Positions 55,144 through 60,530 of a DNA stretch of 64,000 nucleotides are shown in pieces (position 1 is the first letter of the stretch; each line of letters begins with the position of its first letter). The stretch is from Syntrophales bacterium. Lineage in GTDB: Bacteria; Desulfobacterota; Syntrophia; Syntrophales; UBA4778. The DNA is taken from assembly GCA_028712885.1 (NCBI GenBank), contig JAQTPK010000008.1, forward strand, positions 19,096-83,095, written 5' to 3'. The notes beneath the pieces were generated by a model. The model searched no databases, was not told the origin of the DNA, and saw only the letters and a program-made list of their open reading frames with translations. The translations under genes were made by a program, and so were the position numbers.

Positions 55144-56080
55144 ACAAGCCGTACTCGAAACCGACATCGGCGGAGGGTTAACGCTCAGGAATCCACTCCT
55201 CACGGCGTCCGGCACATTCGGCTACGGCGAGGAGTATTCGGAGTATCAGGACCTGGAGAAACTCGGGGCCGTGATCGTCAAGGGGCTTTCCCTGCTCCCC
55301 AGAAAAGGCAATCCGCCGCCGCGAATCATTGAGACGCCTGCGGGAATGCTGAACTCGATCGGTCTCGAGAACGTGGGCGTGAGGGCCTTCATCAGCGAAA
55401 AACTGCCCTTTCTCAGGAGATTCGATACGAAGGTCATCGCCAACGTATACGGCGAGTCGATTGATGAGTTCAGGGAGATTGTCGAGATCCTGGACGGCGC
55501 GCCGGGGGTTCACGGAATAGAAGTCAACGTGTCCTGTCCAAATGTAGAGAAGGGTGGAATTTCCTTCGGGGCTGATGAAAGACTCACGGCCCAAGTGACG
55601 CGTACGGTGAGAGAGGCTACACGGCTGCCGGTAATCGTGAAGCTTACGCCGAATGTGACGGATATTGCTTCCATAGCAGCGGCCGCCCGGGACTCCGGGG
55701 CTGATGCGGTATCTCTCATAAATACCCTGAAGGGCATGTCCATAGACGTCGAGACAAGAAGGGCGCATCTCGGGAACATTACCGGCGGATTGTCCGGTCC
55801 CGCGATCAGGCCCGTAGCCGTCCGGATGGTCTGGGAAACGGCGCGGCGGGTATCAATTCCGGTAATCGGGATCGGCGGCATAATTTCCGCGCGGGACGCC
55901 ATCGAATTCCTGATAGCCGGGGCGTCCGCCGTGCAGATAGGAACCGCAAATTTTCTGGATCCCGGGGCGCCGATGCAGATCCTGAAAGGAATCACGGAGT
56001 ATCTTGACAGGCATTCCATTCCCGATATCAAGCGGCTGATCGGGAGTCTCAAGCAGGGTGGAAGCCATGAAAATTGCTGA
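55127..56080 (+). CDS. pyrD: dihydroorotate dehydrogenase B catalytic subunit
   Basis: LTASGTFGYGEEY, VNVSCPNV, GIGGIISARDAIEFLIAGASAVQIGTA. Confidence 0.95.
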   Translation: MAALNRQAVLETDIGGGLTLRNPLLTASGTFGYGEEYSEYQDLEKLGAVIVKGLSLLPRKGNPPPRIIETPAGMLNSIGLENVGVRAFISEKLPFLRRFDTKVIANVYGESIDEFREIVEILDGAPGVHGIEVNVSCPNVEKGGISFGADERLTAQVTRTVREATRLPVIVKLTPNVTDIASIAAAARDSGADAVSLINTLKGMSIDVETRRAHLGNITGGLSGPAIRPVAVRMVWETARRVSIPVIGIGGIISARDAIEFLIAGASAVQIGTANFLDPGAPMQILKGITEYLDRHSIPDIKRLIGSLKQGGSHENC

Positions 56081-56738
56081 AGGAATATATCTGATCGGAG
56101 GACCGAACCTAACCAGGTCGGAAGACGCCGCAGCTTATGTGATCGACTTCTCGGGCGATCTCGTCATGATCGATGCGGGGGCGGGACGCAGCGCCCGGAT
56201 GCTGGCCGGTAATATCGAGGAAGCCGGTCTCGACCCCGGCCGCATTACCCATCTGATTCTTACCCATTGCCATATCGACCATATCGGCGCCGCCCCCTGT
56301 TTCAGGGACAAGTACGGCTGCCGGCTTGTCGCCCATGAGCTCGACGCCGGAGCAATCGAAGAGGGCGATCCCGTGATGACGGCGGCAAACTGGTATGAGA
56401 CCGAATTTCCTCCTACGCCGATAGATATAAAGATCAGCGGCCCGGAGCATTCTTTCCGCTTTCAGGACCGGGAACTCCTGTGCATTCACACTCCCGGGCA
56501 TACGCCCGGCTCGATTTCCGTTTTTCTCGAGCGGGACGGCAGGAAGGTCCTTTTCGGGCAGGATATTCATGGTCCGTTTCTCCCCTCCTTCGGCTCGGAT
56601 ATAAACGTCTGGAGGCAGTCGATGGAGAAGCTGCTTGCCCTCGAGCCCGACATCCTCTGCGAAGGCCACTTCGGGATTTTTCGGTCCCGCGCTTCGGCCG
56701 AGGCGTATATAAAGAAATACATGAAGATGTATGGGTAA
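56058..56738 (+). CDS. MBL-fold metallohydrolase
   Basis: LTHCHIDHIGAAP, HTPGHTPGS. Confidence 0.9.
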   Translation: MEAMKIAEGIYLIGGPNLTRSEDAAAYVIDFSGDLVMIDAGAGRSARMLAGNIEEAGLDPGRITHLILTHCHIDHIGAAPCFRDKYGCRLVAHELDAGAIEEGDPVMTAANWYETEFPPTPIDIKISGPEHSFRFQDRELLCIHTPGHTPGSISVFLERDGRKVLFGQDIHGPFLPSFGSDINVWRQSMEKLLALEPDILCEGHFGIFRSRASAEAYIKKYMKMYG

Positions 56739-56801: not shown

Positions 56802-56831
56802 TTGACAAATTGCTGAGGCGCGTACTATATA
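56802..56831 (+). promoter_or_regulatory. putative sigma-70 promoter
   Basis: TTGACA-N18-TATATA about 175 nt upstream of the PA2779-like gene. Confidence 0.45.
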
Positions 56832-57006: not shown

Positions 57007-57396
57007 ATGAACCGGTTATTGGTCAGAAGAGTAAGCCTGTATCTTGTGGTGGTTATGTTTTTCATAGGCATAGTTCCGAGAGTTGAGGCGGGATTTGTGC
57101 CGTCTCCGGCCCTTACAGGGGGGACGGAAAACCGGGAAGCGGATATGGAAAAGATCCGCCAGTGCATCGAGAACAAAATGGTCGGCGACAGGCTTGAACA
57201 GCTCGGCTTTACTCCGGGGGAAGTCAAGGCGAGGCTGGACGCAATGACGGACGAGCAGATACATCAGCTTGCGCTGAACCTCGATGAGATCAAAGTCGGC
57301 GGAGACGCTCTCGGCGTCATAATCGCCCTGCTGGTTATCGCCATTCTGGTCGTCATTTTGCTCCAGCTTACAGGGCACAAGGTCATAATCAAATAG
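57007..57396 (+). CDS. PA2779-family secreted/membrane protein
   Basis: Signal peptide, LGFTPGEVKARLDAMTDEQIHQLA, VGGDALG + C-terminal hydrophobic helix. Confidence 0.8.
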   Translation: MNRLLVRRVSLYLVVVMFFIGIVPRVEAGFVPSPALTGGTENREADMEKIRQCIENKMVGDRLEQLGFTPGEVKARLDAMTDEQIHQLALNLDEIKVGGDALGVIIALLVIAILVVILLQLTGHKVIIK

Positions 57397-57403
57397 TCGG
57401 ACG

Positions 57404-58003
57404 ATGTCTATTCCGCCGGTATTGCGGAAAAAGTTATTGAACGGCATGAGCGCGGCGAGCGCCGCGCTCATGCTGACGGCCGCAGCCTGGTGCGCCGGTG
57501 CGGGGACGCCCGGACTCTATGCCGAGGACTCCCCCATGCGGGTAATCCGGAACGTCCCCTTTTACCCTCAGAAAAAAAATCAATGCGGTCCGGCCTCCCT
57601 GGCCGGAGTGATGGTTTTCCGTGGAGTTTTTACTTCACCCGAGGAAATAGCGGCGGAGATATACAGCCCAACGGCGGGCGGCAGCCTTGATTCCGACCTC
57701 CGACGGTATGCGGTCAGGAAGGGACTGCATGCGGAACAGTATCGGGGAAGTGTGGAGGATCTCAAAGCCCAGATCGACCGCGGCAATCCCGTGATCGTTC
57801 TGGTAGACAATGGTTTCCTTTCCTACCGCGCCCACCATTTCATGGTGATAATCGGTTATGACGGCCGAGGCGTAATTGCAAACTCCGGCATTGAGCAGTC
57901 CAGGCGCATATCCATACAGAAATTTCTGGATTCCTGGGGAAAAACGGATTTCTGGACGCTTCTGATCCTGCCGGGAAAAAGGAAATTGGACGAACGGAAA
58001 TGA
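57404..58003 (+). CDS. PA2778-family C39-like cysteine peptidase
   Basis: KNQCGPASLAGV (Cys), AHHFMVIIGYD (His). Confidence 0.8.
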   Translation: MSIPPVLRKKLLNGMSAASAALMLTAAAWCAGAGTPGLYAEDSPMRVIRNVPFYPQKKNQCGPASLAGVMVFRGVFTSPEEIAAEIYSPTAGGSLDSDLRRYAVRKGLHAEQYRGSVEDLKAQIDRGNPVIVLVDNGFLSYRAHHFMVIIGYDGRGVIANSGIEQSRRISIQKFLDSWGKTDFWTLLILPGKRKLDERK

Positions 58004-58452
58004 TTTCGAAGCGGTTTCTGGTATTCGGCCTGATTCTTACGGTCTTGGGGGCGGTGTCATGCACTCTGCCCCGTATCATTACCCTTGAAGACAGGCTGAC
58101 TCCGGAGGAACACCTTAATCTGGGCGCCGCTTACGAGAGAAAAGGAAAATTAGACGACGCGATCCGGGAGTACGAAACAGCGGCAAAACGGCTGCCCCGG
58201 GCCAATCTCCACCTCGGCAACGCCTGGTTCGGCAAGGGAGACTACGGCCGCGCCGAGAAATACTACAGGAAGGCCCTGGAAGAGAAGGCGCCGCCGGCGG
58301 ATGCATACAACAACCTGGCCTGGCTGCTGTACGTGAAGGGCCAAGACCTGGCGGAGGCGGAAACACTTGCCGCAAAGGCGGTCCGGATGGAACCCAGGAA
58401 GGAATACCGCGATACGCTGGACAAAATCAGGGCAGCCCGAAGTGAAAAGTGA
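58000..58452 (+). CDS. TPR-repeat lipoprotein
   Basis: LGAVSC lipobox-like; TPRs. Confidence 0.8.
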   Translation: MISKRFLVFGLILTVLGAVSCTLPRIITLEDRLTPEEHLNLGAAYERKGKLDDAIREYETAAKRLPRANLHLGNAWFGKGDYGRAEKYYRKALEEKAPPADAYNNLAWLLYVKGQDLAEAETLAAKAVRMEPRKEYRDTLDKIRAARSEK

Positions 58453-58556: not shown

Positions 58557-60530
58557 TTAGATGATACGCCCGATTTCGAATCCCTCGCGAATCGCGTCCA
58601 GGGCTTTTCTCGGATTGAGGGCGTCCCCTATGACATGTATTTCCCTCGGCCTCGCTTTCCACTTTTCTATTCCTATATCATTTCGCACCGACCCGAGGGC
58701 TATTACCGCATGATCGAAATCCTCCAGAACGGAGTGGCCCCCGGCTTCGTTGCAGATTTCGATTTTTCCCCCGGTGATGCGTATAACTTTCGTGTTTCGC
58801 CTCAGGGAGACCCCCCTTCCGGCAAGAAGCCTTCTCAGATAGGAGCTCATTATCCCGCCCATGTCCCGTCCGAACTGGCCCGCAGCCTCCAGAACGGTTA
58901 CCTTTTTGCCGAGGCCTGAAAGGTAGAGGGCCGTCTCCAGGCCGACTGCTCCTCCCCCGATCACTGTGATTCTTCCCCCGTCGAGTCTTTTCCCCCTGAG
59001 GACTTCCCATGCCGTTGCAAAAGGGACCTCGACCGGAAAAGGGGGAGCCAGGGGAACTGCTCCCGCCGCGACAATTACGGCGTCGTAGCCGTCCCGGACC
59101 GAGGATTCGTCCGCCTCACTTCCGCACATCACTTCCGCTCCGGCGTTCCGGACTTTCCTTTCGAGGTGATCGAGGTATATGAGAAATTCCGACCGGCCCG
59201 GCACCTGCCCCGCGAGGCGAAGCTGACCGCCGGGTCGAATGTCTTTTTCCCAGAGTTCCACGCGGTGTCCTCTCCGGGCGGCGGCAAGTGCGGCGCTGAG
59301 CCCCGCCGGGCCGCCCCCTATCACGAGGATGCGGCGCCGGGTTTCGGCATTCCGGAGCGCCGTCTCCGCCTCGCGTCCCGCCGCGGGATTTACAAAGCAG
59401 GAGATCCCCCGCGTCATGTCCGACATCATGCTCTCGTTAATGCGGTCGATGCAGCCCTGGTTGCACCCCGTGCACTTCACGATATCCGCCGTTTTTCCAT
59501 GCTCGGCCTTCCGGGGCAGGTCGGGATCGGCGATCAGAGCTCTTCCCATGGCGACGAGATCGGCTTTCCCCTCGCGCAGGATGGACTCGGCCAGAACAGG
59601 ATCGTTTATTCGACCCGCCGCGATAACGGGGATCTTGACAGCTTTTCTGATGCCGGCCGCGAGGTCGGCAAAGCACCCGGGCGGCTCAAACATCGGGGCC
59701 ACGGTGGCCCGGTAAGAGCCGTAGACGCCGGCCGAAACGCTCAGGGCGTCGGCGCCCGCGCCGGCGATCAGAGCCGCTATTTCCGCCATCTCCTCCGGAC
59801 CGGCCCCGTCTTGAATGTAATCATGGCCGTTTATTCTCGCGATGACCGGCATTTCGGGTCCGGGAAGATCCTTGATTGCTTGGATGATCTCACGGCAGAA
59901 ACGGGTTTTCCCCTCCAGGCTCCCTCCGTACTCGTCCTCCCGCCGGTTGGTCCGGGAGGCGAAGAATTCCCCGATCAGATACCCGTGGCAGGCATGAAGT
60001 TCCACCATGTCGAAGCCTGCATCGCGGGCGAAAGAGGCCGACCGGGCGAATTCGAGCACGATTGCCCTGATCTCCTCGCGCGTGAGCTCGTGGGGGATAT
60101 CCCGGCATACCGGACAGGGGAGGGGAGAGGGGGCGACCGGCTGTGCGCCCGAAAAGGAGGAATGAATCTGCCTGCCGAGACGGCTTAACTGCATGGCGAT
60201 ACGCGCGCCGTGCCCATGGACCGATTCAGCCAGCCTGCGGAAATCACTTAAGCTTTCCCGGTTGGCGGCATTGAGGTGGAAGCGGCCGAGCTTGCCTCCT
60301 GCGGGATGGATCATCGTGGCCTCGGTGACGAGGAGTCCCGCGCCTCCCTGAGCCCTCCGTTTGTAATAATCTATCATCCTGGGCGAGGGACGCCCATTCT
60401 CGGCGTAGTTTGTCGCCATGGCGGGCATGACGATCCTGTTTCTCAAGGTCTTCCCGCCGATTGAAACGGGACTGAAAATCAGCTTATCCATCTGGTTTCT
60501 CCGGTGTCTCAGTCTTGGATTAACAAGCAT
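58557..60530 (-). CDS. 2,4-dienoyl-CoA reductase-like NADH:flavin oxidoreductase (old yellow enzyme + FAD/NAD domains)
   Basis: LFSPVSIGGKTLRNRIVM, CTGCNQGCID, VIGGGPAGLSAALAAA, VIGGGAVGLETALYL. Confidence 0.92.
   Translation of the reverse strand: MLVNPRLRHRRNQMDKLIFSPVSIGGKTLRNRIVMPAMATNYAENGRPSPRMIDYYKRRAQGGAGLLVTEATMIHPAGGKLGRFHLNAANRESLSDFRRLAESVHGHGARIAMQLSRLGRQIHSSFSGAQPVAPSPLPCPVCRDIPHELTREEIRAIVLEFARSASFARDAGFDMVELHACHGYLIGEFFASRTNRREDEYGGSLEGKTRFCREIIQAIKDLPGPEMPVIARINGHDYIQDGAGPEEMAEIAALIAGAGADALSVSAGVYGSYRATVAPMFEPPGCFADLAAGIRKAVKIPVIAAGRINDPVLAESILREGKADLVAMGRALIADPDLPRKAEHGKTADIVKCTGCNQGCIDRINESMMSDMTRGISCFVNPAAGREAETALRNAETRRRILVIGGGPAGLSAALAAARRGHRVELWEKDIRPGGQLRLAGQVPGRSEFLIYLDHLERKVRNAGAEVMCGSEADESSVRDGYDAVIVAAGAVPLAPPFPVEVPFATAWEVLRGKRLDGGRITVIGGGAVGLETALYLSGLGKKVTVLEAAGQFGRDMGGIMSSYLRRLLAGRGVSLRRNTKVIRITGGKIEICNEAGGHSVLEDFDHAVIALGSVRNDIGIEKWKARPREIHVIGDALNPRKALDAIREGFEIGRII

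Follow-up and report, generated by a model that had tools for sequence, protein, structure and literature searches.

The window analyzed here is a 64,000-nucleotide stretch of DNA from a Syntrophales bacterium. It carries a three-gene operon whose members are tightly spaced on one strand in the order PA2779-family gene, peptidase gene, and TPR lipoprotein gene. A preliminary description had placed a PA2779/C39-like peptidase/TPR lipoprotein module at this location, and all three open reading frames have been confirmed with their coordinates unchanged. The features relevant to the discussion below are as follows.

57007..57396, + strand: PA2779-family protein and putative substrate (129 aa; NF033919 at 89.1 bits; PF20332, DUF6627), composed of a signal peptide, a helical periplasmic body, a GG hinge, a C-terminal membrane helix, and a basic tail
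57298..57303, + strand: Gly98-Gly99, candidate cleavage site and helix break (sequence, homologue counts, and structure model)
57301..57393, + strand: C-terminal tail from Gly99, with the membrane helix (residues 99-122) and the basic end GHKVIIK
57404..58003, + strand: exported C39-like cysteine peptidase, corresponding to the N-terminal half of the PA2778 family (199 residues; PF13529, PF03412)
57584..57586, + strand: Cys61, presumed catalytic cysteine of the peptidase (conserved in 148/148 family members)
57836..57838, + strand: His145, presumed catalytic histidine of the peptidase (conserved in 146/146 family members)
58000..58452, + strand: TPR lipoprotein, corresponding to the C-terminal half of the PA2778 family (150 residues; NF033920 profile and TPR families)

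Each protein of the proposed pair is a member of, or similar to, a family that NCBI has already named, and the designations PA2778 and PA2779 derive from Pseudomonas. The first protein surpasses the curated cutoff of 40 bits for NF033919. The peptidase aligns with positions 2-148 of the NF033920 (C39_PA2778) profile at 124 bits, and the TPR protein, whose gene overlaps that of the peptidase (ATGA), aligns with positions 152-255 at 42.9 bits. Because these matches cover complementary halves of the profile, the PA2778-type gene is split in the window, which explains why the peptidase falls below the curated cutoff of 150 bits; neither window protein reaches this value alone. Judged by sequence, the two together equal one fused PA2778-type protein, which adds a split PA2778-like pair to what had been described earlier. 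Thus, the locus presents the same two NCBIfam families in the same gene order, but with the peptidase and TPR halves encoded separately. Among 149 family peptidases, 35 have a C-terminal extension of >70 aa, and 91 loci have a separate TPR gene after the peptidase gene. The TPR lipoprotein is likely to be a substrate-binding or scaffold partner. No published function for PA2778 or PA2779 was found in the literature (NCBIfam curator comments aside), where there are only incidental mentions. One of these concerns Pseudomonas stutzeri DSM4166, whose PA2779 gene was selected as one of several candidates for a strong constitutive promoter (PMC10155442). Likewise, no convincing relative of PA2779 was found in the PDB, either by sequence or by fold, and no homologues were found on plasmids.

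The surroundings of the operon vary. No ABC transporter gene is seen in the 52.5-62.4 kb portion of the window, as the preliminary description had indicated for the peptidase. Flanking genes differ between loci and, apart from the three module genes, none is widely recurrent, which suggests that the module is self-contained. A larger conserved cluster was considered and rejected, because lipid-transport, translation, and other genes occur near the module in only part of the family. Genes for an ABC-ATPase (24 loci), an MlaE-like protein (13 loci), and an MCE/MlaD-like protein (14 loci) are located ~2.5-5 kb downstream of PA2779 in related loci. Upstream of the operon in the window, a promoter-like arrangement of TTGACA, 18 nucleotides, and TATATA is visible by eye at 56802-56831; it was omitted by the promoter scan, whose rule requires T at the last position. 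Farther upstream (56058-56738) is a gene for an MBL-fold protein that resembles subclass B3 beta-lactamases and scores far below all curated cutoffs shown. Downstream, in the opposite orientation (58557-60530, - strand), lies a gene for an OYE/FadH-type flavoenzyme that is nearest to mycofactocin-system and bile-acid reductase families and is below their cutoffs.

A functional partnership between PA2779 and the peptidase is well supported by their distribution. Co-occurrence with PA2778 had been proposed as a check of the module, and among 198 genomes sampled from the phylum of the window, both genes are present in 47 and neither in 149. PA2779 and the peptidase half of PA2778 are each found in 48 genomes, and each occurs without the other only once (Fisher p ~3e-43, with relatedness not corrected for). 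The two single-gene genomes (G148 and G150) are cases at contig ends, and one of the 47 shared genomes (G208) has its peptidase in fragments at contig ends. Co-inheritance extends across several phyla. Of 399 genomes in the phylum sample built around G252, to which the Rhodospirillales contig L162 belongs, 41 carry PA2779; for the phylum sample built around the Nitrospirae genome G253, the figure is 40 of 100.

Physical linkage follows the same trend. When 150 distinct PA2779 homologues were gathered without using the GG motif, 123 were found to have a peptidase gene in the same orientation no more than 4 kb away (120 downstream and 3 upstream), with the remainder located at a contig edge (6) or unlinked (21). 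Linkage is evident in 34 of 35 non-edge cases among genomes with a single PA2779 copy, and five multi-copy genomes hold extra unlinked copies. Furthermore, 20 genomes in which a PA2779 copy is unlinked or at a contig edge were checked, and 18 of them encode the peptidase elsewhere; the dependence is therefore not merely a matter of operon hitchhiking. In four of these genomes, the peptidase gene adjoins prfA-, prmC-, and sugar-nucleotide-enzyme-like genes with no PA2779 match beside it, and both partners are kept nonetheless. This distribution is close to the genomic pattern described by Haft and Varghese for a dedicated sorting pair, GlyGly-CTERM and rhombosortase, which exhibit near-perfect co-distribution and adjacency in genomes with one target (PMC3237569). 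In its genomic behavior, the PA2779-peptidase pair thus resembles sorting systems in which co-distribution led to the discovery of the enzyme.

The assignment of the peptidase to the C39 papain-like fold, with the Cys and His residues pointed out previously, is borne out by family matches, profile comparison, and modeling. Its family profile matches the peptidase domains of ComA and PCAT at ~3e-12, and among solved structures its nearest relatives by profile are double-glycine peptidases. An AlphaFold2 model (mean pLDDT 87) matches 6mpz and 3k8u with target-normalized TM scores of 0.82-0.83. In addition to the invariant Cys and His, the family shares with these enzymes the preceding Gln (141/148). 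The C39 double-glycine peptidase LahT carries its catalytic Asp (Asp117) 16 residues after the His (PMC6363468), and the window peptidase has no Asp at this distance. Rather, almost the entire family has [H/N/R/Y][S/D/T]G in place of the canonical Asp(-Pro), including Asn-Ser-Gly in the window, and an Asp is present in 18 of 146 members at one of two possible positions, where the alignment is ambiguous. The enzyme is likely to be active. Also unlike the ComA and PCAT proteins, the window enzyme is a stand-alone, exported protein rather than a cytoplasmic domain fused to an ABC exporter, and its candidate site is near the C-terminus of its partner. A lipobox-like motif precedes the peptidase domain in 109 of 149 relatives, and the window protein is without a standard lipobox (Trp precedes the Cys). 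The lipobox examples listed have a residue other than Asp after the Cys, a feature that in E. coli directs lipoproteins to the outer membrane.

The candidate site itself was examined in the 147 homologues that could be scored. The Gly-Gly pair (positions -2 and -1) is widely conserved just before the C-terminal helix, as had been noticed in the window protein, and it is not invariant: GG is present in 102 homologues, GA in 24, AG in 14, GK in 3, GQ in 2, and GS and GT in 1 each. C39 substrates typically end in GG, GA, or GS (PMC6363468), and these three pairs together account for 127 of 147. The other 20 carry AG, GK, GQ, or GT, and 13 of these have a peptidase gene downstream. A set of 52 loci from the A2 alignment scan was excluded from every GG count because that scan used a GGD pattern. 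It had been proposed that homologues lacking the C-terminal helix would speak against cleavage; three of 150 aligned proteins stop before the GG site, one because it runs off a contig end and two because they are disrupted, and the rest reach the site. VGG is retained before a C-terminal hydrophobic stretch even at L107 and L112, where the partner encoded near a PA2778-like peptidase has diverged so far that its body is barely recognizable.

Given these findings, we favor a model in which a dedicated exported C39 peptidase, together with the TPR protein, cuts PA2779 at or near the Gly-Gly hinge, thereby freeing or maturing its body, although we regard the chances of this model being correct as roughly even. 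PA2779 would be exported by Sec and lose its signal peptide, after which its C-terminal helix would hold it in the inner membrane with the body outside and the basic tail inside. The C39 peptidase, also exported and predicted to be a lipoprotein in most relatives, would act with the TPR protein, which is fused to it in some lineages, and would cut at or beside the hinge. The ~70-residue helical body would then be freed or matured from its membrane anchor. That PA2779 is the substrate seems probable, whereas a cut at GG itself might or might not occur with similar likelihood, and the freed body would be the product. The model draws on the co-occurrence, the linkage, the variable flanks, the invariant Cys and His, the kinship with double-glycine peptidases, the prevalence of Gly at -2 and of GG/GA/GS, the VGG of the two diverged partners, the hinge position, and the divergence of the tail. 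Several observations count against it. The AG, GK, GQ, and GT variants adjoin intact peptidases, the canonical catalytic Asp is replaced, and by the rule that holds in E. coli the lipobox examples mentioned above would be sorted to the outer membrane, whereas the target would be in the inner one.

The residues surrounding the site also count against the cleavage model, because they contradict known C39 leader recognition. Hydrophobic residues are expected at -4, -7, and -12 relative to GG, and the window protein has Lys at -4, Asp at -7, and Leu at -12; Asp at -7 is a family rule (120/148). LahT150 fails to process leaders in which -4 is Lys or Asp, and its activity suffers strongly when either residue occupies -7 (PMC6363468). 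The preliminary description had cautioned that the textbook double-glycine leader is not matched, and this caveat holds. Either recognition differs from that of known C39 enzymes, perhaps occurring via the TPR part, or the site is only a hinge.

It is a serious possibility, though one we consider less than probable, that PA2779 serves as a membrane anchor, activator, or inhibitor of a peptidase that cuts something else, and that Gly-Gly is only a flexible hinge and helix cap. In addition to the missing recognition residues, the structure of PA2779 is compatible with such a role. An AlphaFold2 model (mean pLDDT 79, pTM 0.44) includes helices at residues 3-22, 40-65, 70-79, 82-96, and 99-122, and Gly-Gly falls exactly at the sole break (residues 97-98) between the helical periplasmic body and the C-terminal membrane helix. 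Asp is a normal helix N-cap residue, and Asp100 is suitably placed for this purpose. Because Gly followed by Asp also suits a helix end and N-cap, conservation of GG alone is no proof of a cut. Moreover, residue -2 (Gly in 133/147) is more conserved than residue -1, and conservation within the family peaks at Gly67 (147/147), which sits in the body. On the other hand, several PA2779 paralogues per peptidase, whether in tandem or unlinked, fit substrates better than a stoichiometric regulator, and the variation from GG to GA mirrors C39 tolerance.

The preliminary description had also raised the prospect that cleavage at VGG releases the ~30-residue hydrophobic tail; on this reading, the tail would be a bioactive peptide (a pheromone or bacteriocin-like). 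The tail has a conserved length (median 31 residues), and the sequence after GG is recognizable across the family, both of which speak for such a product. However, where homologue pairs share 50-70% identity in the body, identity is 42-49% in the helix and 40-51% in the signal peptide, and the tail thus changes at about the rate of the signal peptide and more quickly than the body. Such a rate is more easily reconciled with a disposable anchor than with a peptide under selection, as is the usual net positive charge at the end of the tail, since a membrane helix with a basic end is typical of anchors. Furthermore, the conserved neighbors include neither an exporter gene nor an immunity-like gene. 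A released peptide is therefore quite unlikely, and the interpretation offered previously is, overall, partly supported.

The resemblance to GlyGly-CTERM proteins, which share the arrangement of C-terminal motif, membrane helix, and basic tail (PMC3237569), extends only so far. The protease here is a papain-like cysteine peptidase rather than a rhomboid, and a rhombosortase was rejected as the processing enzyme because no match to TIGR03902 exceeds the cutoff in 11 PA2779-bearing genomes. Also unlike GlyGly-CTERM, the PA2779 tail has no convincing match on an unrelated protein in 12 genomes searched with a tail profile. Apart from PA2779 paralogues, this search recovered three partial matches in other frames, all of them weak (E values of 0.0096 to 0.087), and a general sorting signal on unrelated proteins was therefore rejected. 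It is similarly improbable that the Cys-His enzyme acts as a sortase-like transferase that passes a Gly acyl-enzyme to an amine and joins PA2779 to another molecule: the tripartite C-terminus recalls LPXTG and GlyGly-CTERM proteins (PMC3237569) and the third catalytic residue differs from that of hydrolytic C39 enzymes, but an acceptor is without evidence and the tail is not common to unrelated proteins.

Returning to cleavage of PA2779 by its partner, C39 peptidases are chiefly known for cutting leaders on the cytoplasmic side as part of ABC exporters. Perhaps such a peptidase has been reused as an exported envelope enzyme that recognizes a C-terminal signal composed of Gly-Gly and a membrane helix, a tentative proposal whose chances we place somewhat below even. 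If true, the pair would join the sortase, exosortase, and rhombosortase systems as a new type of protease and sorting signal. Should the cut be confirmed, C39 enzymes would gain a role in the envelope, and the two families would be assigned a function.

Several individual loci depart from the common arrangement. Tandem arrays of two or three PA2779 genes are present at L245 (G669:C18) and other loci from the phylum sampled around G253, and the L245 array includes GG and GA copies together with a peptidase gene downstream. At L101 (6704-7063, - strand), a second small exported protein, with SAGAD before its hydrophobic C-terminus, is encoded between PA2779 and the peptidase. A PA2779-like protein at L180 (2305-3252, + strand) has ~200 extra residues that resemble two copies of one domain. 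Lastly, an intact PA2779 gene at L077 (G132:C7) lies beside broken peptidase fragments with stops, and that genome also encodes another set whose peptidase is full length.
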